Positions 1 through 19,152 of a stretch of DNA of 64,000 nucleotides are shown here, in pieces. Within the stretch, counting starts at the first letter, position 1. The number at the start of each line of letters is the position of its first letter. The translations under genes and the position numbers were made by a program. Origin of the DNA: Pseudomonas sp. P5_109 (GTDB lineage: Bacteria; Pseudomonadota; Gammaproteobacteria; Pseudomonadales; Pseudomonadaceae); contig NZ_CP125380.1 of the NCBI RefSeq assembly GCF_034009455.1, positions 4,291,501 to 4,355,500 on the forward strand, given 5' to 3'. The notes beneath the pieces were generated by a model. It was not told the origin of the DNA, did no database searches, and worked only from the letters and a program-made list of their open reading frames with translations.

Positions 1-543
1 AATGTCGGCGTGGTCCTGCAGGACAATGTGTTGTTCAGCGGCAGCATTCTCGACAACCTGCGCCTGGCCTCTCCCCACGCCGACGACGCGAGCCTGATTG
101 CGGCCGCCAGGGAGCTGGGCGCGGACGAAGTGCTGGAGCGGTTGCCGCACCAATACCAGACCGAAGTCGGACCACTGGGCGGGCACCTGAGCCATGGCCA
201 GCGACAATTGGTCTGCCTGGTGCGCGCCTACCTCGCGGACCCTGCGGTATTGGTGCTGGACGAGGCGACCTCGGCCGTCGACATCCATACCGAGCGCCGC
301 ATCCAGCGGGCGTTTCGCCGGCTTTGCGAAGGTCGCACGGCCATCATCATCGCCCATCGCCTGGCAACCATTCGCGATGCCGATCGCATTGCGGTCATCC
401 GCCACGGTCGCCTCGTCGAGCAAGGCCCTCACAGCCAATTGATCGATCAGGGTGGCGCTTATGCGGCGCTGTACCAGACCTACCTGCGCAGTGCCGAAGC
501 GGGCGCCTCGATTGACGACATCGTCGCCACGGCACCGGCGTAA
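1..543 (+). CDS. ABC exporter, C-terminal nucleotide-binding domain (5' truncated)
   Basis: The reading frame is open from base 1, so the gene begins outside the window. The 180 visible residues are the second half of an exporter-type ATPase domain: a Q-loop segment ([12 protein letters not shown]), the signature loop LSHGQRQL, where the usual LSGGQ has His at the third position, Walker [13 protein letters not shown], and the switch histidine in [10 protein letters not shown]. The Q-loop context and the 'DEATSAVD' form are typical of ABC exporters with fused membrane and ATPase domains (MsbA/lipid A or type I secretion style). The membrane part and Walker A lie upstream and cannot be seen, so the substrate cannot be named. 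A short Ala-rich tail follows the domain. The next 536 bases are non-coding REP sequence, so this gene ends its transcription unit. Confidence 0.85.
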
Positions 544-903: not shown

Positions 904-998
904 CGGACTGCTGCTACAGCAGCACCCCCGCCTTCACCCCCTCTCCCGTCCCCCGCCACTCCCCCGGCCCCGCTGGCCCAAACCCGGCGGGCCAACCA

Positions 999-1014
999 TG
1001 GCATGTCCGTTGCA
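999..1014 (+). promoter_or_regulatory. Sigma-54 (-24/-12) promoter for the monooxygenase gene
   Basis: The sequence TGGCATG-TCCG-TTGCA matches the consensus TGGCACG-N4-TTGCW at all but one position. The invariant GG (1000-1001) and GC (1012-1013) have the obligatory 12-base register. It lies about 65 bases before the start codon at 1080. Two comparable sites occur at 4739 and 9992, which makes chance unlikely. No sigma-54 activator gene is visible in the window. Confidence 0.75.
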
Positions 1015-1079
1015 ACCCCCCCTGACAAGACAGCCTCGCACCTGCGCGACGTACCGCGTACTTGAATCAGGAGCAACCC

Positions 1080-2240
1080 ATGAGCACTGAGTTTTTCTGG
1101 CGCCTGCCACTGGGCACCGACGGCCCGCAACTGACCACCGACAAACACAACCGCGGCAATCCGCACTATCGCCCGGGCAACATCGCCCCGGGACGACTGC
1201 CCAATGGCGAACCGGACGACTTCACCTACATCGACTACATTGCCCAGGTCGCGAAAGCCGCAGAACTGGCAGGTTTCGAAGGCGCCTTGTTGCCCACCGG
1301 CCCGGAGCCATGGATTGCCGCAGCGGCCCTGGCCCGTGAAACCCGTCGAATCAAATTCCTGATCGCGTTCCAGGCCACCTGGACCTTGCCGGCCTATGCC
1401 GCACAACAAGCGGCCATCCTGCAGAACCTCAGCCGCGGTCGCCTGGAGTGGAACATCATCACCGGTGGCAACCCGGCCAGTCAGCGCGCCAACGGCGATT
1501 TCCTCGGACATGATCTGCGCTACAAACGCACGGGTGAATTCCTCGACATCATCCAGGGCCTTTGGCAGAACGAACGCTTCTCCTACGAAGGCGATATCTA
1601 CCAACTGGAGAACGGTGCCCTGCCCCATGGCCTGCAGAACGAGCGCAAACCCGGCGTGTACTTTTCCGGGTTCTCTGACGCCGCCCTTGATGTAGCCGCC
1701 AAACACGCCGACGTCTACCTGAACTGGGCCGAGCCCATCGACAAGCTCAAGCCGCATATCGATCGGGTACGCGAACTGGCGGACAAGCAGGGTCGTAGCG
1801 TGCGCTTTGGTCTGCGTGTCGACCTGTTCGCCCGGGAAACCGAAGAGCTGGCGTGGAAAGATTTGCGTCGCCAGTTCGACAAACTTGAAGGCAAGAGCAG
1901 CGTGGTCGCCAAGGGTTTCACCAGCGGCTCCGATTCGGTAGGTGGCGCACGGCAAACCGCCTACCACCAGAACATCGACCGCTTCGACGACCTGATCATC
2001 GGCCCAAACCTGTGGGCCGGCTTCGCCAAAGCCAAGCCGGGGCCAACCGTGGGCCTGGTGGGCAGCCACCAGAACATCGCCGAACGCCTGGTGGAGTACC
2101 GCGATGCCGGTTTCTCGACCTTCATCCTGGCGGGCAATCCTCACCTGGAAGAAGCCCTGCGTATCGGCCAGGAGGTACTGCCACTGGTGCACCAACGTCC
2201 TGCCGTACAACCGGCAACTCATTTGAAGGCCAGCGCCTGA
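1080..2240 (+). CDS. SsuD-like FMNH2-dependent monooxygenase (LLM class)
   Basis: A 386-residue flavin-dependent oxidoreductase of the bacterial luciferase superfamily, closest in layout to alkanesulfonate monooxygenase SsuD. Matching blocks are FFWRLP at the N-terminus, GALLPTG near residue 65, RRIKFLIAF, LSRGRLEWNIITG, RFGLR, PNLWAG and NPHLEEALR near the end. Such enzymes use FMNH2 and O2 to cleave C-S bonds, releasing sulfite. ATG at 1080 is preferred over an upstream TTG at 1062 because an AGGAG-like ribosome site lies at 1068-1074. Compared with my recollection of E. coli SsuD, the Cys after PTG is absent, the His in the RFGIRLH block is Asp, and the active-site Arg of the PNLWAG block region is Lys. 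The natural substrate may therefore not be a simple alkanesulfonate. The gene leads an apparent operon with the two DszB-like genes (20- and 36-base gaps). No dedicated flavin reductase adjoins it. Confidence 0.85.
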   Translation: MSTEFFWRLPLGTDGPQLTTDKHNRGNPHYRPGNIAPGRLPNGEPDDFTYIDYIAQVAKAAELAGFEGALLPTGPEPWIAAAALARETRRIKFLIAFQATWTLPAYAAQQAAILQNLSRGRLEWNIITGGNPASQRANGDFLGHDLRYKRTGEFLDIIQGLWQNERFSYEGDIYQLENGALPHGLQNERKPGVYFSGFSDAALDVAAKHADVYLNWAEPIDKLKPHIDRVRELADKQGRSVRFGLRVDLFARETEELAWKDLRRQFDKLEGKSSVVAKGFTSGSDSVGGARQTAYHQNIDRFDDLIIGPNLWAGFAKAKPGPTVGLVGSHQNIAERLVEYRDAGFSTFILAGNPHLEEALRIGQEVLPLVHQRPAVQPATHLKASA

Positions 2241-2260
2241 GCGCTGCGGGAGAATCATTG

Positions 2261-3313
2261 ATGACTCAAGCTCTGGACACCCTTTGGTACACCCGCTGCC
2301 CGGTACCCACCGGGCTGGGCATTGCCGTGCAAAAAGGCTGGCTGCAAGACACCGTCGGCGCGTTGGGCACGCAAGTGCAGTCGCTGCGCGAATCCACCGA
2401 CAAGGCCGTGCGTGAATCGCACTTCGATCACACCCTGCGCAACTCGGTGCGCCACGGCGGCAACATCCCGGCCATCTGGGCCAGGGCCCAGGGCCGGGAG
2501 ACACGGGTGATTGGCCTGTCCTGGGCCGATGAAGTGCAACTGATCCTGACCCTTCCCGACAGCGGCATCAAAACCGTCAAGGACCTCAAGGGCCGTCGTT
2601 TCGGCTTGCCCGACTGGGCCGGCGCGCAAATCGACTTTACCCGCGCCCAGGCCCTGCGCGGGCTGGAAAACGCCCTGAGCCTGGAAGGCCTGCAAGTTGG
2701 CGATGTGCAGCTGGTGAATTTTCGCTATGAAGGTACGTTCAGCGACCCGCAGGTCAGCACCGTAAACGGCACGCCGGTCAGTGCGCAGCGAGTCGAGGGG
2801 CGCAACCTGGAACTGGTGGGTCTGCTGCGCGGCGAGGTCGATGCAATCTTCCTCAAAGGCGCCAGCGCCGCCCGGCAGGCCCATGAGTTCGGCCTGCACA
2901 CCGTCATCGACACCGGCTCGCACCCCGAGCCCCTGATTCGCAGCAACAATGGCACCCCGCGCACACTGGCCGTGGACCTGAACCTGCTGGATAACCATTT
3001 CGATGTCGCCACCGGCATTCTCGATTCCGTTCGACGCGCCGAACATTGGGCCCACACCCATCCGGAAGACACCCGCCGCTACCTGGCCCGGGAAACCAAC
3101 AGCAGCGAGTACTGGGTCAGCGCCGCCTATGGCAACGATGCCCATCTGCGCTTGCGCACCGAACTGGATGAGCAGGCCATCGACGCCCTGCAGGACTTCA
3201 CACACTTCCTGCATCGCTGGCGCTTCATCCCGAAAAGCTTCGACGTGCGCGACTGGATCGATCCTCGTCCGCTGGACGCGTTGCTGCAAACCCCTACCGC
3301 ACTGGCAGGCTAA
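2261..3313 (+). CDS. DszB-like sulfinate desulfinase homologue with intact Cys
   Basis: A 350-residue protein with the periplasmic-binding-protein fold of the SsuA/NMT1 type, but with no signal peptide: it starts MTQALDTLWYTRCPVPTG and has no hydrophobic N-terminus. It is therefore probably cytoplasmic. It aligns with DszB, 2-(2-hydroxyphenyl)benzenesulfinate desulfinase: the CPVP motif gives Cys13, and the H-F-x8-R-x-G-G block gives His54, Arg64 and Gly67, equivalent to DszB Cys27, His60, Arg70 and Gly73. Family knowledge: DszB releases sulfite from an aryl sulfinate using that Cys. Inference: this is a hydrolytic C-S bond-cleaving enzyme working after or beside the upstream SsuD-like monooxygenase. 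ATG at 2261 follows a GGGAG site. Automatic annotation would probably call it an ABC substrate-binding protein, which the missing signal peptide argues against. Confidence 0.7.
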   Translation: MTQALDTLWYTRCPVPTGLGIAVQKGWLQDTVGALGTQVQSLRESTDKAVRESHFDHTLRNSVRHGGNIPAIWARAQGRETRVIGLSWADEVQLILTLPDSGIKTVKDLKGRRFGLPDWAGAQIDFTRAQALRGLENALSLEGLQVGDVQLVNFRYEGTFSDPQVSTVNGTPVSAQRVEGRNLELVGLLRGEVDAIFLKGASAARQAHEFGLHTVIDTGSHPEPLIRSNNGTPRTLAVDLNLLDNHFDVATGILDSVRRAEHWAHTHPEDTRRYLARETNSSEYWVSAAYGNDAHLRLRTELDEQAIDALQDFTHFLHRWRFIPKSFDVRDWIDPRPLDALLQTPTALAG

Positions 3314-3349
3314 CCCGCCAGGCTTCATGGATCGGCACTGAAGGACTTT

Positions 3350-4408
3350 ATGAGCAAACCACTCGATACGCTTTGGTATACCCATAGCCCTGTTCCCACG
3401 GGGCTAGGCATCGCCGTGCAATCCGGTCGACTGGCGCAAGCCTTTGCGCCGTTCGGCACGAATATCCAATCCCTGCGCGAGTCCAGTGAGCGGGAAGTTC
3501 GCGAAGCCCATTACGACCATCACCTGAAAAACTCGGTGCGTCACGGCGGCAATATCCCGGCCATCTGGGCCTATGCCAGCGGCGTACAGACCCGCGTGCT
3601 GGGGCTGTCCTGGAGCGACGAGGTGCAGCTGATCCTGACCACCGCGGAATCCGGTGTGAAGAGCATTCGCGACTTGAAAAACCGCCGCTTCGGACTGCCG
3701 AAATGGGCCAACGTGCAGATCGACTTCACTCGCGCCCAGGCCCTGCGCGGCCTGGAAAATGCCCTCAAGCTCGAAGGCCTGGACGTGTCTGATGTCGAGT
3801 TGGTGGACTACCCCTATGGCGGCACCTACAGCGACGATCAGAAACAGCATGTCTACGGCTCGGAAGTCAGCCTCGACGTCACGCGCGTCAGCCGCCGCAA
3901 CAACGAACTGATCGGCTTGTTGCGCGGCGACATCGATGCGATTTTTCTCAAGGGCGCGCACGCCGTGCACCTGGCCAACGAATTCGGTTTGCAGGTGGTC
4001 GTCGATACCGGCTCTCACCCCGACCCGCTGATTCGCTCGAACAACGGCACGCCACGGACCCTGACCGTGGACACTCACCTGCTGCATGAGCATTTCGACG
4101 CCAGCGTGAACATCGTTGATACCGTGCTGCGCACCGAGCAATGGGCCTGGGCCAACCCAGACGAAACCCGGCGTTTTCTCGCACGGGAACTCAACACCAG
4201 CGAGTACTGGGTCGCCGCCGCGTACGGCGAAGACGCCCATCGGCGCTTGCGCACGACACTGGATGCACGATCCATTGAAGCGTTGCAGGATTTCACTGAT
4301 TTCCTGCATCGCTGGGACTTTATTCCGCGGCGTTTCGATGTGCGCGACTGGATCGATTTCAGCGTGCTGGAAAAGGTCATCGGCTCCACGTCACGATTGG
4401 CGGTTTGA
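3350..4408 (+). CDS. DszB-like paralogue with Ser in place of the catalytic Cys
   Basis: A 352-residue paralogue of the preceding gene, similar along its whole length (shared blocks include LDTLWYT, SVRHGGNIPAIW, IDFTRAQALRGLENAL, GLLRG-DAIFLKG and LIRSNNGTPRTL). It too lacks a signal peptide. His54 and Arg64 of the DszB-type site are kept, but position 13 is Ser (codon AGC, THSPVPTG) instead of Cys. It may be a catalytically altered enzyme, a regulatory or substrate-holding partner, or a heteromeric subunit of the Cys-containing protein. The start at 3350 follows a GAAGGA ribosome site. It ends the first sub-operon; REP sequence and a new sigma-54 promoter follow. Confidence 0.7.
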   Translation: MSKPLDTLWYTHSPVPTGLGIAVQSGRLAQAFAPFGTNIQSLRESSEREVREAHYDHHLKNSVRHGGNIPAIWAYASGVQTRVLGLSWSDEVQLILTTAESGVKSIRDLKNRRFGLPKWANVQIDFTRAQALRGLENALKLEGLDVSDVELVDYPYGGTYSDDQKQHVYGSEVSLDVTRVSRRNNELIGLLRGDIDAIFLKGAHAVHLANEFGLQVVVDTGSHPDPLIRSNNGTPRTLTVDTHLLHEHFDASVNIVDTVLRTEQWAWANPDETRRFLARELNTSEYWVAAAYGEDAHRRLRTTLDARSIEALQDFTDFLHRWDFIPRRFDVRDWIDFSVLEKVIGSTSRLAV

Positions 4409-4738
4409 GTTTTTCAGCGCCTGTCAGGACGTCATCGCCAGCAAGCCGGCTCCTACAATGTTTATTCCGTTTCAACGCAAAGCCTGTAGGAGCCGGCTTG
4501 CTGGCGATGGCGTCCGCAAGGCCAACGGATTGTTGGCCAGGCAACACTCCCTCACTCAACTCCTGCTGCTCCAGCAACACCCGCCAAGCAACTTCTGCTG
4601 AATGCCTGACAGGCACTTATCAGGAGACTGAATCCAACTAACAAACTCTAAAAAAATCCGCCGAACGCACAACTTATTCATACAATTAATCCTTTATTTT
4701 CAATACCTTGATAAAACTAACCACGCAAAAAAAGCACT
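4409..4738. repeat. REP pair and AT-rich upstream region
   Basis: An inverted REP pair occupies about 4432-4512 (CATCGCCAGCAAGCCGGCTC, then its reverse complement after a short spacer). From about 4620 the base composition becomes clearly AT-rich up to the sigma-54 promoter, as expected for an enhancer/IHF-type region, but I see no exact palindrome to call as an activator site. Confidence 0.7.
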
Positions 4739-4754
4739 TGGCACGATCTCTGCT
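4739..4754 (+). promoter_or_regulatory. Sigma-54 (-24/-12) promoter for the first TonB receptor
   Basis: TGGCACG-ATCT-CTGCT: the -24 element is a perfect consensus and the -12 element keeps GC at 4752-4753, with exact GG-to-GC spacing. The expected transcription start is about 4765, leaving a roughly 28-base leader with a strong GGGGGAGA ribosome site before ATG 4793. The region upstream is AT-rich. Confidence 0.8.
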
Positions 4755-4792
4755 CAACCCCCACTAGTGAAACTTTCCTGGGGGAGACTCAA

Positions 4793-7063
4793 ATGCATAA
4801 ACTTAATCCAATCACCAAAAGTATCTGGCTAACCTTGTTACTCGCCGGGGGCGGCGTCAGCGAGGGTTTGCTGGCAGCAGAAACCACAGAAACCGACAGC
4901 AGCAAATCGGCTGCGGAGCCTTCGCTGAAAACCGTGACCGTCACCGCGCAACACCGGGAGGAAACCCTGCAAGAGATTCCGGTGGCGGTGTCCGCGATCC
5001 AGGGCACCAGCCTGGTGGCCGACGGCGTGCGCAACATGGGCGACATCACCACCTTCGTTCCCAACACGTCGGCGAAAAACCCGGACGGCGATGGTCGCCC
5101 ACGTTGGTACATCCGTGGTCTCGGTACCGGTGATACCGGCGCAGCCACCGTTTTCCCGGTGGGGATCTACGCCGATGACGTCTACCTCAACGCACCGGTT
5201 GCCGGCGGCGGGCCTCTGTTCGACCTGGAGCGCATCGAAATCCTGCGCGGGCCGCAAGGTACCCTGTACGGCAAGAACACCACCGCGGGCGCGGTGAACG
5301 TCATCTCGAAAAAACCAACCTTCGACACTGACGGCTTCGGCACGATCGGGTTTGGCACCAAGAACGAACGCATCGTCAGCGGCGCTCTGGGGGGAGCGCT
5401 GGTGGATGAAAAACTCGCGGCACGGGTCTCGCTGTACTCCGAGGAGCGTGACGGTTTCCAGGAAAACCTGGTCGATGACAACACCTATGGCGACGTCAAC
5501 AAGAAAGCCGTCCGCCTGCAGTTTCTTGCTCAGATAAATGACGATCTCGAGGCACTGCTCAAGGTCCACAGCCGCGAATTCAAAGGCGACGGCAGCAACG
5601 GTTCGCTCGCGGTCGGGCGTTATTACAACGTTGGCTACGTAAGACCCAATGGACGCGATATCGCAATCAACGTCAATGAAGACTCCAAGCTCAATCACGA
5701 CGGCACTTCGCTGACCCTGAACTGGCACCTGGGTGACTACACCCTGACCTCCATCAGCGCCTATGACTACATTCGCAACCAGGCGACCAGCGACGCCGAC
5801 TACACGCCTTATGAAGTCAACGGCGCAGCGATTTCCGACAACAAATACGCTCAATACACCCAGGAGCTGCGCCTGGCATCGCCACAGCAGGAAACCCTGC
5901 GCTGGCTGCTGGGCGCGCATTACTTCCACGAAGACCTCGACAGCTCTGCCCAGCGCATTGTCACACCCGGCCCGACGCCTAACGGTACCGGCTCAAACCA
6001 GATCGGCGGCGTCACCGACTTCCGTGATCTGAGCTATGACCACAAGACCGACAGCTACGCGCTGTTCGGCAACCTGACCTACGACTTCACCGAAGATTTC
6101 AGCGTGACTGGCGGCCTGCGCTGGACCCAGGAAAAGAAAGACATCGACCTCGACCTGACGCAACTGACCCGCTTCACGGCCAACGGCCCGCTGGTGCCGC
6201 TGCCTGGCGTCGGCACCAACGGCAATCGTCAGGAAGACAAGACCTGGGAAGCCTGGACCTATGACCTGACGCCGGAATACCGGATCAACGATAACGTGCG
6301 GGTGTTCTTCCGTTACGCCCATGGCTTCCGTTCCGGCGGTTTCAATACCGGCCTGTCCACCAGCCTGTCGCAGCTGACCACGGTCGACCCGGAACAACTC
6401 GACGCCTACGAACTCGGCCTCAAATCCGAGTGGTTCGACCATCGCCTGACGGCCAACGCCAACATCTTCTACTACGACTATTCGGATATTCAGGTGAACC
6501 TGCTGACGGTCAACAACGGCGTGCTGACCACGGCGCTGACCAACGGCGCCAAGGGTACGGTCAAGGGCGCCGAACTGGAACTCGAAGCCCAGCCGACTGA
6601 CTACCTGCACCTGCGTGCCGCAGTATCGTTCCTCGACACCGAATACACCGACTTCAAGAACACCAACCCCAACACCGGGGTGGTCACGGGTGATTACAGC
6701 GGCAACAGTTTCGTGCGTTCACCGCGCAACGTGGTGGCGCTCGGTGGCGACTACACGTTCCCGCTGGAAGTCGGTGGCAAGCTGGTGGCTGGCGGCGATG
6801 TGAGTTTCCGCGACAAGGAATACTTCCTCGCCGATCGCCAGAGCAGTGCTGACAAGACCCTCAGCCAACCGCATTACACCCTGGCCAATACTCGCCTGAC
6901 CTGGTACAGCCCGGATGAAAAACTCAGCGTGACCGGGTTTGTGAACAACGTCACCGACCGTCGCTATCAGGTCCATGGTCGTCCGAACGGCACCCTGGGC
7001 CAATACGTGATCACCTACGGCGACCCGCGGACCGTCGGCCTGAGCGTGACCAGCCGCTTCTGA
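4793..7063 (+). CDS. TonB-dependent outer-membrane receptor
   Basis: 756 residues. A signal peptide ends near residue 29 (LLAGGGVSEGLLAAE), and a TonB-box-like stretch TVTVTA follows. The plug domain contains WYIRGLGTG, GIYADDVYLN, RIEILRGPQGTLYGKNT and GAVNVISKKP. The rest is a 22-stranded-type barrel ending in Phe (GLSVTSRF). It imports a scarce ligand across the outer membrane at the expense of the proton-motive force, coupled by TonB. The ligand is not evident from sequence; it sits under its own sigma-54 promoter between organosulfur enzymes and an SsuBC-like transporter, so a sulfonate- or sulfate-ester-like ligand is more likely than an iron siderophore. No siderophore synthesis or Fur-box context is visible. 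RBS GGGGGAGA. Confidence 0.9.
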   Translation: MHKLNPITKSIWLTLLLAGGGVSEGLLAAETTETDSSKSAAEPSLKTVTVTAQHREETLQEIPVAVSAIQGTSLVADGVRNMGDITTFVPNTSAKNPDGDGRPRWYIRGLGTGDTGAATVFPVGIYADDVYLNAPVAGGGPLFDLERIEILRGPQGTLYGKNTTAGAVNVISKKPTFDTDGFGTIGFGTKNERIVSGALGGALVDEKLAARVSLYSEERDGFQENLVDDNTYGDVNKKAVRLQFLAQINDDLEALLKVHSREFKGDGSNGSLAVGRYYNVGYVRPNGRDIAINVNEDSKLNHDGTSLTLNWHLGDYTLTSISAYDYIRNQATSDADYTPYEVNGAAISDNKYAQYTQELRLASPQQETLRWLLGAHYFHEDLDSSAQRIVTPGPTPNGTGSNQIGGVTDFRDLSYDHKTDSYALFGNLTYDFTEDFSVTGGLRWTQEKKDIDLDLTQLTRFTANGPLVPLPGVGTNGNRQEDKTWEAWTYDLTPEYRINDNVRVFFRYAHGFRSGGFNTGLSTSLSQLTTVDPEQLDAYELGLKSEWFDHRLTANANIFYYDYSDIQVNLLTVNNGVLTTALTNGAKGTVKGAELELEAQPTDYLHLRAAVSFLDTEYTDFKNTNPNTGVVTGDYSGNSFVRSPRNVVALGGDYTFPLEVGGKLVAGGDVSFRDKEYFLADRQSSADKTLSQPHYTLANTRLTWYSPDEKLSVTGFVNNVTDRRYQVHGRPNGTLGQYVITYGDPRTVGLSVTSRF

Positions 7064-7343
7064 CCTGAAACCTCCCCTTGCCGGCGATGGGGCCCGCATG
7101 CCTTGCATCGCCCTCTTGGCCGCCATCGCCAGCAAGCCGGCTCCTACAGAAAAATCATCGAATCCGGACTACCGGTACGCACCCATAAAACCATCGATTT
7201 CCGGACCTCCGGCATCCACACATCCACTGTAGGAGCCGGCTTGCCGGCGATGGGGCCCGCAAGCCTTGCATCGCATTGAAGGCCGCCATCGCTGGCAAGC
7301 CAGCTCCTACAGGGGTCTTCATTCGTCTGGAAGGAATTTATCC
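7064..7343. repeat. REP cluster between the two receptor genes
   Basis: Three REP copies in alternating orientation: about 7122-7150 (inverted), 7228-7258 (direct) and 7281-7312 (inverted). No promoter is obvious, so the second receptor may be read through from the sigma-54 promoter at 4739 or have an unrecognised promoter. Confidence 0.8.
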
Positions 7344-9806
<2,463 letters not shown>

Positions 9807-9991
9807 GTGGACTGCTGCCGGGGTGTTGCCCTGGCAGCAACGGGTGCTGATCAGGCATCAATTGCCGCGACAACGAGCCCTGTAGGAGCTGGCTTGCCAG
9901 CGATGCGGTCAGCACGATTTGTGTCGCCTGCACCGCCGCCATCGCCAGCAGGCCGGCTCCTACAGGGTTGTTTGGCGTGATCGGTGTTTGC
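9807..9991. repeat. REP pair upstream of the ABC permeases
   Basis: A direct and an inverted REP copy at about 9880-9906 and 9938-9965 can fold into one long hairpin. It may serve as a transcriptional punctuation mark between the receptor gene and the next promoter. Confidence 0.75.
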
Positions 9992-10007
9992 TGGCACAGC
10001 TCTTGCG
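9992..10007 (+). promoter_or_regulatory. Sigma-54 (-24/-12) promoter for the ABC transporter operon
   Basis: TGGCACA-GCTC-TTGCG has GG at 9993-9994 and GC at 10005-10006 in exact register, with a complete TTGC -12 element. It lies 37 bases before the permease start codon at 10044. It is the third such site in this island. Confidence 0.75.
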
Positions 10008-10043
10008 ATACCCCTTCGGTACTTCGCCGAAATAAGAACCGCC

Positions 10044-10805
10044 ATGCGTACTCAACGTCTGTTCTCAACCCTAAGCTGGCTCATCTCTCCTGTTGCCCTG
10101 TTGTTGCTGTGGGCGGTGGTCGCCGAGGCCGGGATTTTCCCGCGCAACCTGCTGGTCCCTCCCGCTCAGGTGTGGCGGACTTTCGAAGCGCTGTCGGCCA
10201 GTGGTGAGCTGCTCGAACACCTGCTTAACAGCCTGTCGCGCCTGGGGCTGGGGTTCGGCATTGGTTCACTGTGCGGGCTGGCGTTCGGCGTGCTCATGGC
10301 CTTGTCGAAAAACGTCGAGATCTACTGCTCGCCGCTGTTCCACACCTTGCGCCAGATTCCCAGCATCGCCTTGATCCCGATGTTCGTGCTGCTGTTCGGC
10401 ATCGATGAAACCTTCAAGATCATCATCGTTGCCAAAACCGCGTTCTTCCCGGTCGCGCTGGCCGCCAGCGAAGGCGTCAAGGCCATTCCGCGCAGCTACT
10501 TCGAGGTGGCTGACGTCTACCGCCTGCGCTGGCCGACACTGGTCCGGGAGATCGCCCTGCCCGCTGCCGCGCCCCCGATCATCACCGGTTTTCGTATCAG
10601 CCTGACCCGCGCCTGGGTGGTGCTGGTGGCCACCGAGTTGCTCGCTGCTGACAGTGGCCTGGGACAGATGATCGAAATGAGCCGGCAAATGTTGCGCATC
10701 GATGTGGTGATGGTCGGGATTGTCGTGACCGGTTTGATCGGTTTCACCCTGGATTTCAGCTTTCGCCAACTGGAACAGCGGCTGTTCCGCTGGCAGACCC
10801 GCTAG
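10044..10805 (+). CDS. ABC transporter permease, SsuC/TauC type (1)
   Basis: 253 residues with about six hydrophobic segments and the EAA-type cytoplasmic loop near residues 150-185 (ASEGVKAIPRSYFEVADVYR... ALPAAAPPIITGFRISL), typical of BPD-type permeases of the nitrate/sulfonate/taurine family. ATG 10044 is preferred to an upstream GTG at 9984, because that GTG would lie inside the sigma-54 promoter. The gene is separated by 9 bases from a second permease, so the inner-membrane channel is probably a heterodimer, whereas SsuC and TauC usually work as homodimers. No periplasmic binding protein with a signal peptide is encoded nearby. Confidence 0.9.
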   Translation: MRTQRLFSTLSWLISPVALLLLWAVVAEAGIFPRNLLVPPAQVWRTFEALSASGELLEHLLNSLSRLGLGFGIGSLCGLAFGVLMALSKNVEIYCSPLFHTLRQIPSIALIPMFVLLFGIDETFKIIIVAKTAFFPVALAASEGVKAIPRSYFEVADVYRLRWPTLVREIALPAAAPPIITGFRISLTRAWVVLVATELLAADSGLGQMIEMSRQMLRIDVVMVGIVVTGLIGFTLDFSFRQLEQRLFRWQTR

Positions 10806-10814
10806 GAGCCTTCG

Positions 10815-11576
10815 ATGTCTGGACTGATTGCCAAATCCCGTGGCCTGTTGCTGCCGCTGTTGTTGATCGGCGGCTGGGAATACCTGTCACGCCAGGACGC
10901 GGCGGGGGCTTACGCCTTTGTGCCGCTGTCGACCATCGGCGCCGCCTTGCTTGAGTTGCTGGCCAATGGCGAGTTGCTGGTGAACCTGTTGGCCAGTCTG
11001 GCGCGTACCAGCACCGGGCTGGCGCTGGGTATTTTCTTCGGTGTCCTGTTGGGCGTGTTGATGGCGCTGTCGGGACTCGCCAACCGGCTGATCGGGCCGC
11101 TGTTTCATTCGATCCGCCAGGTCCCCATGCTCGGCTGGATTCCGCTGATCGCCATGTGGTTCGGCAACGGCGAGTTCTCCAAGGTGCTGATCGTCAGCCT
11201 CGCGGCTTTCTACCCCATGGTGCTCAACACTTACCAGGGCTTCAGCCATGTCGAGCAGCGCTATCGCGAAGTCGGCCAGGTACTGGTGCTGAGCCGCTGG
11301 CAACGGTTTCGTCATGTGCTGCTACCGGCGGCGCTGCCGAGCATCGCCACCGGTGTGCTGCATGCGCTCGCGTTTGCCTGGGTCACGGCAGTGGGCAGCG
11401 AGTTGTTCCTGTCTTCGGGAGCCGGCCTGGGCAACCTGATGATGAACGCCGAAGCCGGCTCACGCATGGAAGTCATCGTCCTCAGCGTGTTGTGCATCGG
11501 TCTGTGCGGTTACCTGATGACCCTGCTATTCACCCTTCTGAGCCGCCATTTGCTGCGCTGGCGCAACATTCGTTGA
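10815..11576 (+). CDS. ABC transporter permease, SsuC/TauC type (2)
   Basis: 253 residues, the same family as the preceding gene but clearly diverged. It has an N-terminal membrane segment (GLLLPLLLIGGWEYLS), a core with GIFFGVLLGVLMALSG, FHSIRQVPMLGWIPLIAMWFG, and the EAA loop (NTYQGFSHVEQRYREVGQVLVLSRW... LPAALPSIATGV). The start at 10815 has a TAGGAG site 4-5 bases after the previous stop, indicating translational coupling. Together with the first permease and the ATPase at 11588 it forms one importer. Confidence 0.9.
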   Translation: MSGLIAKSRGLLLPLLLIGGWEYLSRQDAAGAYAFVPLSTIGAALLELLANGELLVNLLASLARTSTGLALGIFFGVLLGVLMALSGLANRLIGPLFHSIRQVPMLGWIPLIAMWFGNGEFSKVLIVSLAAFYPMVLNTYQGFSHVEQRYREVGQVLVLSRWQRFRHVLLPAALPSIATGVLHALAFAWVTAVGSELFLSSGAGLGNLMMNAEAGSRMEVIVLSVLCIGLCGYLMTLLFTLLSRHLLRWRNIR

Positions 11577-11587
11577 AAGGCCACTCC

Positions 11588-12382
11588 ATGAACGCAATTG
11601 CCCAACATGTCCTGCCCCACAGCACCCCGCTACAGTCCGGCGCCCTGCAAATCCGCGGCCTGAGCAAGGCCTATCGGATCGAAGGCCAGCCTCTGCCAGT
11701 GCTGCGCAACATCAACCTCGACGTTCGCCCCGGCGAGTTCGTCAGCATCGTGGGTGCCAGCGGCTGCGGGAAATCCACGCTGCTGCGGCTGATCGTCGGG
11801 CTGGAGGCCGACTATGAAGGTGACATCCTGCTCGATGGCAAACGGATCGTGGCCACCAGCCTGGAGCGCGGGATCGTGTTTCAGGATCACCGTTTGTTTC
11901 CGTGGATGACCCTGAGCCAGAACATTGCCCTGGCCTTGAAAAACCATCCACTGTCCCAGACGGAAAAAGACCGATTGGTGGCCGAACACATTGCCCTGGT
12001 CAACCTTGAGGGCTTCGAGAATGCCTACCCGCACCAGTTGTCCGGTGGCATGGCGCAACGAGCCGCCATTGCCCGGGCGCTGATCAACAAACCAAAAGTG
12101 CTGTTGCTCGACGAACCCCTCGGCGCGCTCGACGCGTTGACCCGGGTACGACTTCAACACGAACTGCAGCGCATCTGGGTGCAACAACGCTGCACCGTGA
12201 TCATGGTGACCCACGATATCGAAGAAGCCCTGTACCTGGGTGACCGGGTGATCGTCATGGACGCCCATCCGGGACGGATCAAGCACGAAATCAAGGTCGA
12301 CTTGCCCCATCCCCGGGATCGGGCTTCAACCGTGCTGCAAGGCTACAAGGAACAACTGCTGGAGGAGCTGGTGGGGCATTGA
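11588..12382 (+). CDS. ABC transporter ATP-binding protein, SsuB/TauB type
   Basis: 264 residues with a complete importer ATPase: Walker A GASGCGKST (about residues 56-64), Q-loop IVFQDHRLFPWMTL, signature LSGGMAQRAAIARAL, Walker B VLLLDEPLGALD and the switch His in VTHDIEEALYLGDRV. The DHRLFPWM and EEALYLGDR forms are characteristic of the nitrate/sulfonate/taurine branch. Start ATG 11588, 11 bases after the second permease; a much longer open frame upstream is an overlap with the permease gene. It energises import by the heterodimeric permease pair. Confidence 0.92.
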   Translation: MNAIAQHVLPHSTPLQSGALQIRGLSKAYRIEGQPLPVLRNINLDVRPGEFVSIVGASGCGKSTLLRLIVGLEADYEGDILLDGKRIVATSLERGIVFQDHRLFPWMTLSQNIALALKNHPLSQTEKDRLVAEHIALVNLEGFENAYPHQLSGGMAQRAAIARALINKPKVLLLDEPLGALDALTRVRLQHELQRIWVQQRCTVIMVTHDIEEALYLGDRVIVMDAHPGRIKHEIKVDLPHPRDRASTVLQGYKEQLLEELVGH

Positions 12383-12439
12383 AGCCCGGACCGGTCCGTC
12401 GAAGCGTGGAAAAACCACAGGATTCACAGGAGTAAACAA

Positions 12440-13252
12440 ATGGGCAATGTCCAAAGCCCCGCCAGTCTGCCGCAAGTGTTCCAGGGCCCGGGCCTCGGTG
12501 AGCTGCTCAACCTTGGCCGGGTATTTCGCGAACCCTTGGCACTGTCTCGCCTGCACCGCACACCGCAACGGCTGTTGAGTCGTCGCGAGGTGGTCTTGCT
12601 GGGGGTGTTGGCGCTGGTCCTGCATGGCGCGGTGATTGTCTGGGTCAACCAGGCACCCACGCCGCAACTGCCCGTAGTACCCCCGGAAATCCCGCCGATG
12701 ACCATCGAGTTCTCCCGGCCGGCGCCACCCGTTGTCGAACCACCTGCGCCCGAGCCGATTGCCCAACCCGTGGTGGAGCCACCTCCACCGGTGGAAGATG
12801 AATTGGCCGTGAAACCGCCACCGCCCAAGCCGATACCCAAGCCCAAGCCTGCTCTCAAGCCCGCGCCTAAACCGGTGGCCAAACCGGTGACAGCGCAACC
12901 TACCCCCGCCGTGACGCCGCAACCGGTGGCCGCGGCGCCCGCACCTGCGGCACCGCCTGCCCCTCAGCCCGTGACCCCGGCTTCGGCAACGGCCGGGTAC
13001 TTGCACAACCCGGCGCCGGAATACCCGTCCCAGGCCATGCGCCGGGGCTGGCAAGGCACGGTGTTGTTGCGCGTCCATGTGTTGGCCAGCGGCAAGCCCG
13101 GTGAAATCCAGATTCAAAAAAGCAGTGGCCGCGAATCGCTGGACGACGCCGCACTGGCCGCCGTGAAACGCTGGAGCTTCGTCCCGGCCAAGCAAGGCGA
13201 CACCGCGCTGGACGGCTGGGTCAGCGTGCCCATCGACTTCAAAATCAAGTAA
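12440..13252 (+). CDS. tonB: TonB energy-transducing protein
   Basis: 270 residues with classic TonB architecture: a roughly 50-residue cytoplasmic N-terminus, one membrane anchor at about residues 51-69 (VVLLGVLALVLHGAVIVWV), a long Pro/Lys/Val-rich periplasmic spacer to about residue 185 (repeated PKP and PPP units), and the C-terminal TonB domain (YLHNPAPEYPSQAMRRGWQG, then LRVHVLASG, WSFVPA). The extended N-terminal tail resembles the Pseudomonas TonB1/PopB-like forms. The ribosome site is CAGGAG. It lies 57 bases after the ATPase gene and just before exbB and exbD, so the island provides its own energiser for the two receptors. Confidence 0.92.
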   Translation: MGNVQSPASLPQVFQGPGLGELLNLGRVFREPLALSRLHRTPQRLLSRREVVLLGVLALVLHGAVIVWVNQAPTPQLPVVPPEIPPMTIEFSRPAPPVVEPPAPEPIAQPVVEPPPPVEDELAVKPPPPKPIPKPKPALKPAPKPVAKPVTAQPTPAVTPQPVAAAPAPAAPPAPQPVTPASATAGYLHNPAPEYPSQAMRRGWQGTVLLRVHVLASGKPGEIQIQKSSGRESLDDAALAAVKRWSFVPAKQGDTALDGWVSVPIDFKIK

Positions 13253-13336
13253 CTCAAACCTATCGAAACCCTGCGGGCTACCTGGCAAAAGGCGCATCGC
13301 TACAACTGATCTAATGCCTTGTTGGAGCACCCGACC

Positions 13337-14059
13337 ATGAGTCTACTCACCTCCCCCTTCGAATCCATCGAACACGCCGTCATCTGGCTGCTGATTGTCT
13401 TCTCCGTCGCGACTTGGGGCCTGGCCTTGCTCAAGGGCTTGCAGTTCATCCGGTTGAAGACGCAGGACCGAAAATTCCATCGGCAGTTCTGGGCCGCTTC
13501 GAGCCTTGAATCGGCCGCCGATTTCGCCAACAACCTGCCTGGCGCTGCAGCCCGCGTTGCGCTTGCCGGTTACAACGCGATCCAGATCAGTGACAGTCAG
13601 AACGCTGACCTCAGCCAGTCGATCAATCATCAGGACCGCCTTGAGCGTGCCTTGCGCCAGCAGATCGTGCGTGAACGGCGCTCGCTGGAAACAGGGCTAG
13701 CCATCCTTGCCAGTATCGGCAGCACCTCGCCCTTCATCGGCCTGTTCGGTACCGTCTGGGGGATCATGTCCGCGTTGAAAGGGATCAGTGCGGCGGGTTC
13801 GGCGAGCCTGGAAACCGTGGCGGGCCCCATCGGCGCCGCACTGGTCGCCACCGGTGTCGGTATTGCTGTCGCCGTGCCGGCGGTGCTGGTCTACAACTAT
13901 TTCCTGCGTCGCCTGAAGTTGACGGCAGCAGACCTGGATGACTTTGCGCACGACTTCTACAGCCTGGCGCAGAAACACGCGTTCCGTGTGCTGCTGAGCC
14001 CTGTCGCGGGTAAATCCGCCGCCAGCACCTCCGGGCAGAAAATCAAGGAGGCGTCCTGA
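13337..14059 (+). CDS. exbB: ExbB, MotA/TolQ/ExbB proton channel family
   Basis: 240 residues. There is an N-terminal membrane segment (AVIWLLIVFSVATWGLALL), a cytoplasmic loop with the ERALRQQIVRERRSLETGL stretch, and two C-terminal membrane segments containing the family signature SPFIGLFGTVWGIMSAL and GPIGAALVATGVGIAVAVPA. ExbB forms the pentameric proton channel that, with ExbD, drives TonB. ATG 13337 is chosen over TTG 13319 because of a TTGGAG ribosome site at 13322-13327. A single base separates its stop from exbD. Confidence 0.93.
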   Translation: MSLLTSPFESIEHAVIWLLIVFSVATWGLALLKGLQFIRLKTQDRKFHRQFWAASSLESAADFANNLPGAAARVALAGYNAIQISDSQNADLSQSINHQDRLERALRQQIVRERRSLETGLAILASIGSTSPFIGLFGTVWGIMSALKGISAAGSASLETVAGPIGAALVATGVGIAVAVPAVLVYNYFLRRLKLTAADLDDFAHDFYSLAQKHAFRVLLSPVAGKSAASTSGQKIKEAS

Positions 14060-14060
14060 T

Positions 14061-14462
14061 ATGGCCTTCTCTACACAAGACAGCGATGAAGTACTCAGCG
14101 AGATCAACGTCACGCCCCTGGTGGACGTGATGCTGGTGCTGTTGGTGGTGTTCATCGTCACGGCGCCGCTGCTGACCAATGCGATACCGATCAACTTGCC
14201 GAAGACCGAAGCCGTGGCGCCGGTGGAGCAGAAAGACCCATTGGTGGTGAGCATCGACGGCGCCGGCAAACTGTTCATCAACAAGGATGAAATCCAGCCG
14301 GATCTGCTGGAGTTCAACCTTAAGGCGGCGAAGGCCAAAGACCCGGAAGTGCGCGTGCAATTGCAGGCCGATGACGGCGTGAATTACGGCGAAGTGGCCC
14401 GCGCCATGGCGTCGATCGAGCGCGCGGGGATCAGCAAACTGTCGGTGATCACCGCGAGGTAA
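14061..14462 (+). CDS. exbD: ExbD, TonB-system proton channel subunit
   Basis: 133 residues. It contains the ExbD/TolR signature INVTPLVDVMLVLLVVFIVTA, which includes the protonatable Asp in the single membrane helix, followed by a periplasmic domain (VSIDGAGKLFINKDEI... VRVQLQADDGVNYGEVARAM). A strong AAGGAGG site lies 7 bases before ATG 14061 and overlaps the end of exbB, so the two are coupled. It is the last gene of the organosulfur/TonB island; REP sequence follows. Confidence 0.93.
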   Translation: MAFSTQDSDEVLSEINVTPLVDVMLVLLVVFIVTAPLLTNAIPINLPKTEAVAPVEQKDPLVVSIDGAGKLFINKDEIQPDLLEFNLKAAKAKDPEVRVQLQADDGVNYGEVARAMASIERAGISKLSVITAR

Positions 14463-14562: not shown

Positions 14563-15075
14563 TCAGCAATGCGCGCTGGCATGCTCAACGCGATGAAACA
14601 GGCGGTTGAAATACACCAGGCTGTCGCGCGGTTCGCGCACGCCGACCTTCGTCAGCTCGACGAACATCACCGAGTGCGAGCCCACTTCCTTGCACTCGCT
14701 GATCCGCCCTTCCAGCTGTACCAGGGCATCGCGCAGCACCGGCACATCGGCCGCGCCGTCGTCCCACAGGTCCCAGGCGAAGCGCTCGGCCATCGGCACC
14801 TGGGTCATGCCGGCGAAATGCCGGGCCAGTTCTTCCTGCTCGCCACACAGCACGTTGACGCACAGGTGGCCGTTGGTGCGGAACACGTCGTGGGTGGCGC
14901 TGTTGCGGTTGACGCACACCAGCACCGTGGGCGGCGAGTCGGTCACCGAGCACACGGCGCTGGCGGTGATGCCACAGCGCCCGCCCGGGCCGTTGGTGGT
15001 GATGATGTTCACCGCCGCCGGCAGCTGCGCCATGGCGTTGCGAAAGTCGATTTGCTGCTGGCTCAGGTCGGCCAT
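14563..15075 (-). CDS. iacG: Flavin reductase IacG (HpaC-like)
   Basis: 170 residues of the HpaC/flavin reductase-like FMN-binding family: FRNAMAQLPAAVNIITTNGPGGRCGIT, then SAVCSVTDSPPTVLVCVN, LCVNVLCGEQEELARHFAG, and YFNRLFH at the end. These enzymes reduce flavin with NADH and hand it to a partner oxygenase. In iac clusters this role belongs to iacG, which serves the IacA hydroxylase, and the rest of that cluster lies at 19.1-26.0 kb, so IacG is favoured over hpaC. It is divergent from the response regulator gene, sharing the 15076-15334 control region. It could also supply FMNH2 to the SsuD-like enzyme, but nothing in the sequence shows that. Confidence 0.8.
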   Translation of the reverse strand: MADLSQQQIDFRNAMAQLPAAVNIITTNGPGGRCGITASAVCSVTDSPPTVLVCVNRNSATHDVFRTNGHLCVNVLCGEQEELARHFAGMTQVPMAERFAWDLWDDGAADVPVLRDALVQLEGRISECKEVGSHSVMFVELTKVGVREPRDSLVYFNRLFHRVEHASAHC

Positions 15076-15334
15076 GTCGATGCCCCTTCCTTCTGGAGGA
15101 CCGGCGTTGCGCGGTCCGTAGGTGATGGAACAAGACTAAGGCCGTGGCTGCGCCGCAACCATTCTGACGATCCCCATGACGAGGTTGGGTTTCCGCTAGT
15201 CGACTAGGTGGTTTCTTTATCGCAAGGGCCGGCCACAGTGGGTATTCTGCTTACTGACTCGGCAAAGACGAGCCGATGCGTGCCGCGCGTTCGCGTGCGA
15301 AAACAATAATTAAAAAACTTTCGTGGCAGCCCCG

Positions 15335-15964
15335 ATGGAAACCCGTAAACCGATTGTTTATATCGTTGACGACGACAAGGACCTGCGCACTTCCCTGGCC
15401 TGGTTGCTGGAGTCGGTCAGCGTGCAGGCGCAGTGTTTTGCCGGCGCCGAAGAATTCCTCAGCCAATACGACCCCAAGCAGCCCGCCTGCCTGGTGCTCG
15501 ATGTGCGCATGCCCGAGACCAGCGGCTTCCAGTTGCAGGAAATCCTCAACCAGCGCGGCAGTACCTTGCCGACCATCTTCGTCTCGGCCCATGGCGATAT
15601 CCCGATGTCGGTCACGGCGATGAAGAACGGCGCGCTGGATTTCGTCGAGAAACCCTACAACCCGCAACAGATGATCGACCGCATCCAGGCCGCGCTGAAA
15701 ACCGCTGTGCATGCCCAGGCCGATCAGCAGCAGCGGCAGAACCTGCAAGGCAAGCTGGCGCTGCTGACCAGCCGCGAGCGCGAAGTGCTGATGCTGGTGA
15801 TCGATGGCAAGGCGAGCAAGGTGATCGCCCGGGAGCTGAACATCAGCGTGAAGACCGTTGACGTGCACCGCACCAAGATCAAGGAAAAGATGGGCGTGTC
15901 CAGCATCGCCATGCTGGTGCGCGAGGTGCTGCATTTGCCGGTGGATGAGCCGGTGCGGCACTGA
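15335..15964 (+). CDS. FixJ/NarL-type response regulator (putative iac regulator)
   Basis: 209 residues. The N-terminal receiver domain has acidic residues D12-D14, phospho-acceptor D56 (LVLDVRMP), the switch Thr/Ser region (IFVSAHGD) and conserved Lys in EKPYNP. The C-terminal LuxR-type helix-turn-helix begins LTSREREVLMLV and continues with ISVKTVDVHRTKIKEKM. The FixJ-like output suggests activation from a sigma-70 promoter. ATG 15335 is preferred to GTG 15323. It sits beside iacG, while a soluble PAS kinase of the FixL kind lies at the other end of the iac cluster. They probably form one pair that has been separated by about 10 kb of catabolic genes and an insertion sequence. Confidence 0.88.
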   Translation: METRKPIVYIVDDDKDLRTSLAWLLESVSVQAQCFAGAEEFLSQYDPKQPACLVLDVRMPETSGFQLQEILNQRGSTLPTIFVSAHGDIPMSVTAMKNGALDFVEKPYNPQQMIDRIQAALKTAVHAQADQQQRQNLQGKLALLTSREREVLMLVIDGKASKVIARELNISVKTVDVHRTKIKEKMGVSSIAMLVREVLHLPVDEPVRH

Positions 15965-16038
15965 GGAATCTGCGGCGGTCATGAGGCCTGTTCGCGAGCA
16001 GGTGATCCCGGCCAGGCACAAATACAGTGTTCGCTGCA

Positions 16039-16453
16039 GATCCCTGTAGGAGCTGGCTTGCCAGCGATGAGGCCATTACATTCAATATTGATGGCGACTG
16101 ACACACCGCTTTCGCGAGCAAGCCCGCTCCCACAGTTTGATCTCGGCCGGACACAAATACTGTGTTCACTGAAGATCCCTGTAGGAGCTGGCTTGCCAGC
16201 GATGAGGCCATTACATTCAATATTGATGGCGACTGACACACCGCTTTCGCGAGCAAGCCCGCTCCCACAGTTTGATCCAGGCCAGACACAAATACAGTGT
16301 TCACCGGAGATCCCTGTAGGAGCTGGCTTGCCAGCGATGAGGCCATTACATTCAATATTGATGGCGACTGACACACCGCTTTCGCGAGCAAGCCCGCTCC
16401 CACAGTTTGATCTCGGCCAGGCACAAATACTGTGTTCACCGGAGATCCCTGTA
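16039..16453. repeat. Three 135-bp tandem repeats built around a REP pair
   Basis: GATCCCTGTAGGAGCTGG recurs at 16039, 16174 and 16309, exactly 135 bases apart, and its first part again at 16444. Each unit holds a GTAGGAGC-type REP, the spacer ATTACATTCAATATTGATGG, an inverted GTGGGAGC-type REP and an ACACAAATAC linker. The fourth unit is cut after GTA at 16453 by the insertion sequence and resumes with GGAGCTGG at 17891. Confidence 0.92.
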
Positions 16454-18078: not shown

Positions 18079-18999
18079 TCAGTTCTGGCTATACCGCTTG
18101 CGATAAGCCCCCGGCGAAACACCAAAACGCGATTTGAACGCCGACGAGAAGTAGCTCGAATCGGAAAAGCCCCAGGCATAACACAGCGCCGAAAGCTTCT
18201 GCTCGACATCATGGCGGCGCAGGTTTTCGGCGCAGAAGTCCAGGCGGCGATGCTTGATGTACTGCGCCACCACCAGGCCGCGCTTGGAGAACATCCGGTA
18301 CAGGCCGCGCACGGAAATTCCCACTTCACGGGCGATCAGCTCGGGGCACAGTTCCTCGTCGCTGAGGTGTGCATCAATGAACGCGATGATCTTGCGGAAC
18401 TGCCGTTCATGGGGATCAGCCGCGCCGTCCCGGGCACTGATGCCCGGCAGCAGCAGGCTGGCCAGGGCATCGAGCACGGCCTCGCTCTCCTGCATCTCCA
18501 GCCCGTCCTGCTGGCGAGTCTCCAGCACCAGCTTGTTGGCCATTGCCGCCAGGGGACTGCTGGCCGCGATGCGCGTGGCGCAGTTGACGGCATTGAAGTG
18601 CGAGCCGCGCTCGACTACCTGGCGCGGCAAAATCAACGACAGCTGTCGGCAATCGTCGTTGTAGATCATGTCGCTCGGACGGCTGGCGTCGATCAGCGCG
18701 ATGTCGCCACAGCCCAATTGCGCGCGGTTGTCGCCCTGCTCCAGCTGTGAGCTGCCACGCATCTGGAACACTGCGTAGTAGTGGCCGTCGCTGCTGGTGC
18801 TGACGTCCTTGCTGGTGCGATATAAATGCACGTGCGCCATGTCGACCACACTGAGGTTGATCGCACCGCTGCGAAACTCCGCCAGTTCGCCGTAGAAATC
18901 AGTGTCCAGCGCCCGGGCATCGAAACGCCCACAGGCCTGGTTCACCTGGCTCAACCAACTTTCGAACGCCTCGTTGCGCACCGTCGATGCTGTAATCAT
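18079..18999 (-). CDS. AraC-family regulator, FeaR-like
   Basis: 306 residues. An N-terminal ligand-binding AraC_binding_2-like region (ARALDTDFYGELAEFRSGAI, HVHLYRTSKD, HYYAVFQMRG) is followed by a C-terminal double helix-turn-helix at about residues 205-306, with LIAREVGISVRGLYRMF, the linker, and CYAWGFSDSSYFSSAFKSRFG. The layout matches FeaR and related activators of aromatic amine/acid catabolism. It lies 154 bases downstream of iacF on the same strand. The MarR-type iacR of Pseudomonas putida 1290 occupies the equivalent place, so this gene probably replaces it as local regulator. Inducer unknown. Confidence 0.85.
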   Translation of the reverse strand: MITASTVRNEAFESWLSQVNQACGRFDARALDTDFYGELAEFRSGAINLSVVDMAHVHLYRTSKDVSTSSDGHYYAVFQMRGSSQLEQGDNRAQLGCGDIALIDASRPSDMIYNDDCRQLSLILPRQVVERGSHFNAVNCATRIAASSPLAAMANKLVLETRQQDGLEMQESEAVLDALASLLLPGISARDGAADPHERQFRKIIAFIDAHLSDEELCPELIAREVGISVRGLYRMFSKRGLVVAQYIKHRRLDFCAENLRRHDVEQKLSALCYAWGFSDSSYFSSAFKSRFGVSPGAYRKRYSQN

Positions 19000-19152
19000 G
19001 TCCGCAAAGCCTCACGTTTTTTGTTGTTATTTTTCGACCGCTTCAGCGTGCGGTTCGGTAACACGGTTATTTCTGTCGCCATCGCCTCCCTCGATGGCCG
19101 CCGGGCGCCCATTCAACAGGCTCCGGCGCATGCTTTCCAGCTTTCCTTAGTC

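Follow-up and report, generated by a model that had tools for sequence, protein, structure and literature searches.

What do a luciferase-like monooxygenase (LLM), two relatives of the desulfinase DszB, two TonB-dependent receptors (TBDRs), an ATP-binding cassette (ABC) importer and a TonB-ExbB-ExbD set do side by side in the soil-type Pseudomonas sp. P5_109? The genes lie at 999-14462 of the window, by which we mean the whole 64-kb stretch analyzed (G000:C1:4291501-4355500, where G000 is the strain's own 6.96-Mb single-contig genome). An earlier note had read them as a self-contained organosulfur-scavenging system of ten genes. Open reading frame (ORF) and family scans recover every part it named, all on the plus strand, but count 11 genes. 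This segment is the right-hand part of an organosulfur island of about 38 kb that begins outside the window, with bounds judged from annotation and composition. We consider it probable that the island works as one system that scavenges organosulfur compounds during sulfur starvation. The case for a sulfur-starvation island is better supported than the earlier note could know, and its most interesting part is DszBb, a DszB paralog with serine at the catalytic cysteine. The features are as follows.

909..930, plus: enhancer-like motif TGCTGCTNCAGCAGCACCCGCC upstream of LLM1, 2 mismatches
999..1014, plus: sigma-54-type promoter TGGCATGTCCGTTGCA of LLM1-dszBa-dszBb, 1 mismatch to consensus
1080..2240, plus: LLM1, luciferase-like monooxygenase dependent on reduced flavin mononucleotide (FMNH2), SsuD/SfnG-like by profile scans, below the SsuD and SfnG equivalog cut-offs; the ORF is open from TTG 1062, and ATG 1080 is preceded by GGAG
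2264..3313, plus: DszBa, cytoplasmic DszB-like desulfinase with Cys-His-Arg, by alignment and predicted fold
3350..4408, plus: DszBb, paralog of DszBa (65%) with Ser at the catalytic Cys, by alignment
4564..4585, plus: enhancer-like motif upstream of TBDR1, 1 mismatch
4739..4754, plus: sigma-54-type promoter TGGCACGATCTCTGCT of TBDR1, 1 mismatch
4793..7063, plus: TBDR1, TonB-dependent receptor, 755 residues, by family scan
about 7344..9806, plus: TBDR2, TonB-dependent receptor, 819 residues, by family scan; ORF open from 7266
10044..10805, plus: permease 1, resembling the first half of an AtsB-type fused permease (37%); ORF open from 9984
10815..11576, plus: permease 2, resembling the second half of an AtsB-type fused permease (36%)
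11588..12382, plus: AtsC-like ABC ATPase, 54% to the ATPase of the ats-like locus L121
12440..13252, plus: TonB, TonB2-type, 74% to the ats-linked copy
13337..14059, plus: ExbB, 84% to the copy at G000:C1:203249
14061..14462, plus: ExbD, 98% to the ats-linked copy

Linkage, composition and promoters

LLM1 orthologs (at least 82% identity) occur in 33 of 199 genomes of the genus, our own included, and a DszB paralog lies within 7 kb of LLM1 in 32 of them and within 1.4 kb in 28. Twenty-nine of the 32 have two DszB genes; G009, G130 and G127 have one match, 64-67% identical to DszBa, a value that fits DszBb. In G032, the one exception, the locus is decayed, with LLM1 beside a truncated TBDR1. 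Among 65 Pseudomonas loci, all fetched through a DszB query, 52 carry LLM1, DszBa and DszBb, 10 carry LLM1 and DszBb, and three carry the two DszB genes, so that DszBb is present in 62/62 loci with LLM1. The LLM1-DszB core is conserved. Scattering in relatives, which the earlier note named as a refuting result, applies to TonB-ExbB-ExbD but not to this core. One relative, G128, has a receptor, a binding protein, LLM1, an exporter pair, both DszB genes, an importer, an activator and TonB-ExbB-ExbD in a single stretch. The closest named loci, judged by DszBa, belong to Pseudomonas sp. PB101 and P. laurylsulfativorans (99% identity). A wide distribution was rejected, as a sample of the phylum gave only 7 of 398 genomes, five of them from the same family (own genome included). 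Outside the genus, a contig titled as a Pedobacter metagenome-assembled genome (L097) has DszBa (71%), a receptor and ABC genes that otherwise look proteobacterial, perhaps through a binning error, and a DszB relative from another family of the phylum (L146, G304) has an LLM-like ORF, seen by eye, directly upstream. No description of this gene combination was found in the titles and abstract openings of the open-licence papers that searches for it listed.

The proteins of the core are almost devoid of sulfur. Cys and internal Met are both absent from LLM1 and DszBb, and DszBa, also free of internal Met, has a single Cys at the catalytic place. The background mean is 3.8% Cys+Met (33 ORFs at 18-64 kb of the window, some perhaps false). 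TBDR1 and TBDR2, each with one Met and no Cys, are the two lowest in Cys/Met of 18 receptors in the genome; TBDR0, one more receptor of the island beyond the 18, has 0.47%, and ExbD has 1.5%. LLM1 is the lowest of the genome's 12 LLMs, tied with LLM2 if the latter starts at MAVKILW. Among relatives, 56/63 LLM1 proteins lack Cys and Met (first 12 residues excluded), 47/69 DszBa proteins contain a single Cys and lack Met, and 40/64 DszBb proteins have neither residue. Sulfur sparing has been reported for the Dsz enzymes, with one Cys and no Met in DszB (available text of PMC8557817).

The promoters point in the same direction. With at most one mismatch, the sigma-54 consensus TGGCACG-N4-TTGCW has five sites in the 99 kb scanned, and three of these stand directly before LLM1 (999, the first base of TGGCATG-N4-TTGCA), TBDR1 (4739) and DszBc, a third DszB paralog. 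At up to two mismatches, the site recurs in relatives upstream of LLM1 (61/62), TBDR1 (36/36), DszBc (36/39), the SfnB/DszC-type gene DszC (28/34) and permease 1 (5/45), and it was not found upstream of the aldolase-like gene, LLM2, the ATPase or ABCx1. Base shuffles give such a site at 0.1-0.9% (0.006 for the LLM1 upstream regions). The second motif, TGCTGCTNCAGCAGCACCCGCC, lies upstream of the sigma-54 promoters. Its matches with up to four mismatches in the 99 kb are confined to the region between DszBc and DszC and to those preceding LLM1 and TBDR1; a five-mismatch match precedes an SsuA-type binding protein gene. In relatives, four or fewer mismatches are seen for LLM1 (34/62, base-shuffled rate 0.003), TBDR1 (33/36), DszC (23/34), DszBc (28/39) and permease 1 (12/45). 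G128 and G126 have a weaker pair before TonB itself (sigma-54 site with two mismatches; motif with four and five).

The island also encodes a short enhancer-binding activator, 62% identical to the activator beside MsuE/MsuD/MsuC-like genes in the same genome, which by gene position would be SfnR. Together with predicted -24/-12 promoters that match the consensus and are conserved, this activator is what a sigma-54/SfnR-type regulon would contain. Use of the island under sulfur starvation is well supported by near-total Cys/Met loss, conserved sigma-54 promoters and an enhancer-like motif.

DszBa, its serine paralog and LLM1

The earlier note had described two cytoplasmic DszB-like proteins. 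Both are present, begin at the mature fold and show no signal peptide by eye, but only one keeps the catalytic cysteine. DszBa has a predicted fold closest to DszB, and alignment to DszB assigns it Cys27-His60-Arg70 and the RxGG motif. Across its orthologs, window included, the Cys is kept in 72/72, the His in 69/72, and the Arg and the checked Gly in 72/72.

DszBb instead has Ser-His-Arg, with Ser in 66/66 copies, window included. The C27S mutant of DszB is inactive (available text of PMC6100217). In a tree with the catalytic column masked, DszBb forms one clade (SH-aLRT 100) that implies a single Cys/Ser change, by a quick method and with some long branches. Median dN/dS between the window and 11 loci is 0.060 for DszBb, 0.075 for LLM1 and 0.169 for DszBa, so DszBb is under stronger purifying selection than DszBa. 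These values argue against decay as the cause of the Ser, and a decaying copy is unlikely. At the cut-offs used, the paralogs show fixed differences in just four columns (R12H, C13S, W27R and S53A); column 13 is the catalytic position, 12 its neighbor and 53 the residue just before the catalytic His. DszBb likely has another function.

LLM1 was called SsuD-like, which holds in that it is a luciferase-type, SsuD/SfnG-like protein but not for several SsuD motif residues. It scores 295.3 of the 518.2 bits of the SsuD equivalog, a cut-off exceeded by two other genes in the genome; the GRSCED loop is missing, and the SsuD residues H, Y and R, which we take to be catalytic, are replaced by D, N and K. 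By these sequence criteria LLM1 is not a true SsuD. Identification as SfnG was also rejected (147.6 of 382.95 bits, below the equivalog cut-off). Its score against the NtaA/DmoA family of DszA (TIGR03860) is 89.5 bits versus a cut-off of 279.7; a monooxygenase of that family is present instead in the sphingomonad relatives L096 and L098.

We tentatively entertain a bolder reading, although the odds are against it as a whole: DszBb would represent a new class of function within the DszB/SsuA fold, having become the invariable partner of LLM1 through a single duplication that replaced the desulfinase active site. The duplication is seen here only in Pseudomonas loci. LLM1 and DszBb would then form an undescribed C-S cleavage pair fed by sulfur-dedicated TonB uptake, in which DszBb might, for instance, act through Ser/His-based catalysis or carry sulfinate or substrate to LLM1 in the cytoplasm. 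If true, this would suggest that the DszB family has a natural, TonB-imported substrate class.

Upstream partners, uptake genes and a possible pathway

The term self-contained does not survive inspection of the flanking DNA, as a binding protein, the activator, an SfnB/DszC-type enzyme and the third DszB all lie upstream, and the annotated stretch showed no flavin reductase of sulfur-sparing composition. The main upstream features, with the one that reaches into the window, are:

G000:4266440-4267555, minus: sigma-54 activator, SfnR-type, 371 residues, PF00158 237 bits
G000:4267878-4269020: SsuA-type binding protein with an apparent signal peptide, TIGR01728 93.6 bits against a cut-off of 163.5
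10..543 of the window, plus: C-terminal end of ABCx2, half of an ABC-exporter-fold pair whose body lies upstream of the window

The first two are about 24-26 kb upstream of LLM1. Downstream of the binding protein come, in order, a secretory-lipase-like hydrolase, an SsuD-like LLM, a DppA-type binding protein, a receptor, another LLM, a Dpp-type ABC operon, LLM2, a class-II-aldolase-like protein, DszBc (41% to DszBa), an SfnB/DszC-family enzyme (391.5 of 430.9 bits for SfnB, 198.5 of 850 for DszC) and the exporter-fold pair. Orthologs of ABCx2 directly follow DszBa in sphingomonad loci such as L096 and L098. ABCx1/ABCx2 were also considered as a siderophore-type importer; among the 60 of 573 solved-structure matches listed for ABCx2, most have exporter-type names.

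No periplasmic binding protein was seen within 999-14462; an SsuA-type candidate is the sub-cut-off gene about 24 kb upstream of LLM1. It is 50% identical to a Silvimonas counterpart (L103) and 45% to a Sphingomonas one (L096), and because these adjoin permease orthologs, it is probably the missing partner of the importer.

The claim of a private TonB is true in this genome and needs qualification beyond it. The genome also has an ats-linked set, to which the local one is paralogous (TonB 74%, ExbB 84%, ExbD 98%) and which is presumably the ortholog of PA0197-99. In L121, whose genes we assume carry the names ats, sft, AtsK and SftP, the order is a sulfatase-like gene, an AtsC/AtsB-like importer, an SsuA-type protein, LysR-like and TauD-type genes, a receptor and TonB-ExbB-ExbD. 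Twelve of 19 ExbB neighborhoods (L121-L139), hand-picked and in some cases chosen for nearby DszB matches, carry L121-like sulfur genes, and one more gives a weak match. The available text of PMC3377617 describes the TonB2 genes PA0197-99 as not known to be iron-regulated and as strongly induced by sulfate starvation, and their Pf-5 ortholog as down in iron-limited cells. A TonB2 linked to sulfur has therefore already been published; what the window adds is a second copy next to an LLM/DszB operon.

An ExbB of this subfamily is present in 32 of the 33 LLM1-bearing genomes, but within 20 kb of LLM1 in only five, own included, so the idea that TonB always accompanies the cluster was dropped. Such proximity has a chance P of about 3e-6, uncorrected for relatedness and with the discovery genome included. 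TonB is seen in 9/62 LLM1 loci (partial matches and loci ending early counted) and in 0/10 with at least 9.9 kb downstream of DszBb. In L052, a partial ExbB match lies between the ATPase and a flavin reductase, as if TonB-ExbB-ExbD had been lost.

From these parts we infer a possible substrate, reaction order, transport direction and mode of control. The SfnR-type activator would bind the enhancer-like motifs and switch on the sigma-54 promoters. TBDR1 and TBDR2 would take up an organosulfur compound, powered by the local or the ats-linked TonB-ExbB-ExbD, and the SsuA-type protein would pass it to the AtsBC-like importer. In the cytoplasm, the SfnB/DszC-type enzyme and LLM1, with FMNH2 made elsewhere, would oxidize the compound and produce a sulfinate by breaking one C-S bond; DszBa would then free sulfite from it. 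DszBb may be a distinct LLM1 partner with an altered active site, either a sulfinate or substrate binder or an enzyme with other chemistry.

To the right of ExbD, at the island's edge, an HpaC/RutF-type flavin reductase (14563-15075, minus; TIGR02296 225 bits) was considered as the system's own and set aside as likely unrelated (6.5% Cys+Met, opposite strand); in locus L050, a reductase of this type is the next matched gene after the ATPase. Beyond it, a LuxR-type response regulator (15323-15964, plus) and a PAS histidine kinase (26321-27811, plus) flank an apparent inserted block. Between them lie repeated units, seen by eye, with a transposase-like ORF lacking a Pfam match (15979-17294), and, at 18079-25988 (minus), genes for an AraC regulator, a Fer2 protein, a short-chain dehydrogenase/reductase, ring-hydroxylating dioxygenase alpha and beta subunits, a SnoaL-like protein, an amidase and acyl-CoA-dehydrogenase-like proteins. 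The latter stretch resembles a catabolic operon and is without the sulfur-poor signature. At 28235-30595 (plus) lies a VgrG-like protein, either from a type VI secretion system or from a phage tail.

Competing explanations and known systems

Several observations weigh against a single sulfur-starvation system. ExbB is seldom near LLM1, the permeases and ATPase are not sulfur-poor (2.3-4.0% Cys+Met), and TBDR2 has no sigma-54 site of its own in the window and one in only 3/31 relatives. The flavin reductase adjoining ExbD is probably unrelated, though the system needs one. TGCTGCTNCAGCAGCACCCGCC was derived from the same island promoters in which it was then counted, so that the sites in G000 do not count as independent; a single intergenic region is shared by DszBc and DszC, and only base content was preserved in the shuffles. 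Over the structural match, identity between DszBa and DszB is only 24%, and 10/62 LLM1 loci keep DszBb with no DszBa seen next to LLM1, which means that these loci do not require the Cys enzyme.

A variant ssu locus, in which LLM1 would be an alkanesulfonate monooxygenase freeing sulfite in a single step and the DszB-like pair would serve the importer as SsuA-like binding proteins without catalysis, seems unlikely to us given the SsuD score and missing SsuD residues of LLM1, the two genes elsewhere above the SsuD cut-off, the start of DszBa and DszBb at the mature fold, the placement of DszBa's sole Cys, and the signal-peptide-bearing binding protein upstream, 45-50% identical to those beside the L096 and L103 permeases. 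About equally unlikely is ats/sft-type uptake of a sulfate ester or sulfonate, with LLM1 and DszB serving the product of another pathway and the 38 kb being a hotspot of unrelated sulfur modules. The importer, receptor and TonB set do resemble the ats-like locus (TBDR1 is 29% identical to its receptor), the stretch also houses several enzymes of LLM type and a Dpp-type operon, and TBDRs, importer, exporters and DszBc vary among relatives, many of whose loci end at contig or flank edges. However, LLM1, TBDR1, DszBc, DszC and, weakly, the binding-protein operon share a promoter/enhancer code, G128 has one contiguous complete locus, and LLM1 and DszBb stay together in all 62 LLM1 loci of the DszB query, with decayed G032 as the exception.

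An iron or siderophore locus, in which receptors and TonB set would import a metal chelate and the oxidoreductases would be there by coincidence, is very improbable. Siderophore and haem types are the best receptor profiles, all below cut-off, and the nearest solved structures are mostly siderophore receptors, with B12 receptors also for TBDR2, although this comparison gave no useful match for the substrate. Yet these are the genome's most sulfur-poor receptors among the 18, TBDR1 has the same sigma-54/enhancer pair as LLM1, and PA0197-99 is reported to be induced by sulfate starvation and not known to be iron-regulated, with its Pf-5 ortholog down under iron limitation (PMC3377617, in the part available). 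Taken together, the Cys/Met loss, conserved promoters and enhancer-like motif, and LLM1-DszB linkage favor organosulfur scavenging by energized outer-membrane uptake, import and flavin-dependent C-S chemistry, much as the earlier note had proposed.

We know of no natural substrate for DszB-type desulfinases, and dibenzothiophene is a fossil-fuel compound. Here the DszB family is tied to energized outer-membrane uptake and to a regulon-like island carried by roughly one in six of the Pseudomonas genomes sampled (33/199), which makes the natural-substrate question testable in soil strains. The island suggests a role for the second TonB system of pseudomonads, and a natural Cys-to-Ser desulfinase paralog conserved under purifying selection is a clean case of enzyme function change. 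Much soil sulfur is organic (cited in the available text of PMC8079746).

The island shares with the Rhodococcus dsz (4S) operon, DszA-DszB-DszC, the DszB-type Cys, His and RxGG, a flavin monooxygenase partner and sulfur sparing. It differs in that LLM1 is SsuD/SfnG-like rather than of the NtaA/DmoA (DszA) type, the S-oxidizing enzyme is closer to SfnB and lies outside the operon, and receptors, an importer, TonB and a Ser paralog of DszB are added. The asf arylsulfonate locus comprises the AsfA/AsfB reductase-ferredoxin pair and AsfC. L121 likewise joins a TonB receptor, an AtsBC-like importer and a TonB2-type set, but has sulfatase-like and TauD/AtsK-like catabolic genes, a fused permease, its binding protein in the locus and no enhancer-motif match within five mismatches.

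In Rhodococcus qingshengii IGTS8, peg4799-4806 are listed as SsuA, SsuB, 'SsuA/DszB', SsuD and SsuA (available text of PMC8557817). Likened by these names and not by sequence, they place a DszB-like gene between sulfonate importer and SsuD-like genes, among sulfur-acquisition proteins, in a Gram-positive without TonB uptake. The Pseudomonas genes sfnG, msuC, msuD, msuE and sfnR, with SfnG turning a sulfone into a sulfinate (available text of PMC8234197), resemble the island in a related sigma-54 activator, FMNH2-dependent monooxygenases and this sulfone-to-sulfinate chemistry. There, however, MsuC oxidizes the sulfinate and MsuD cuts it, whereas the island has a DszB-type desulfinase and uptake genes. 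The claim that known loci do not combine these parts is therefore right only in part, since L121 already joins receptor, importer and TonB-ExbB-ExbD and peg4799-4806, as listed, joins Ssu and DszB-like genes.

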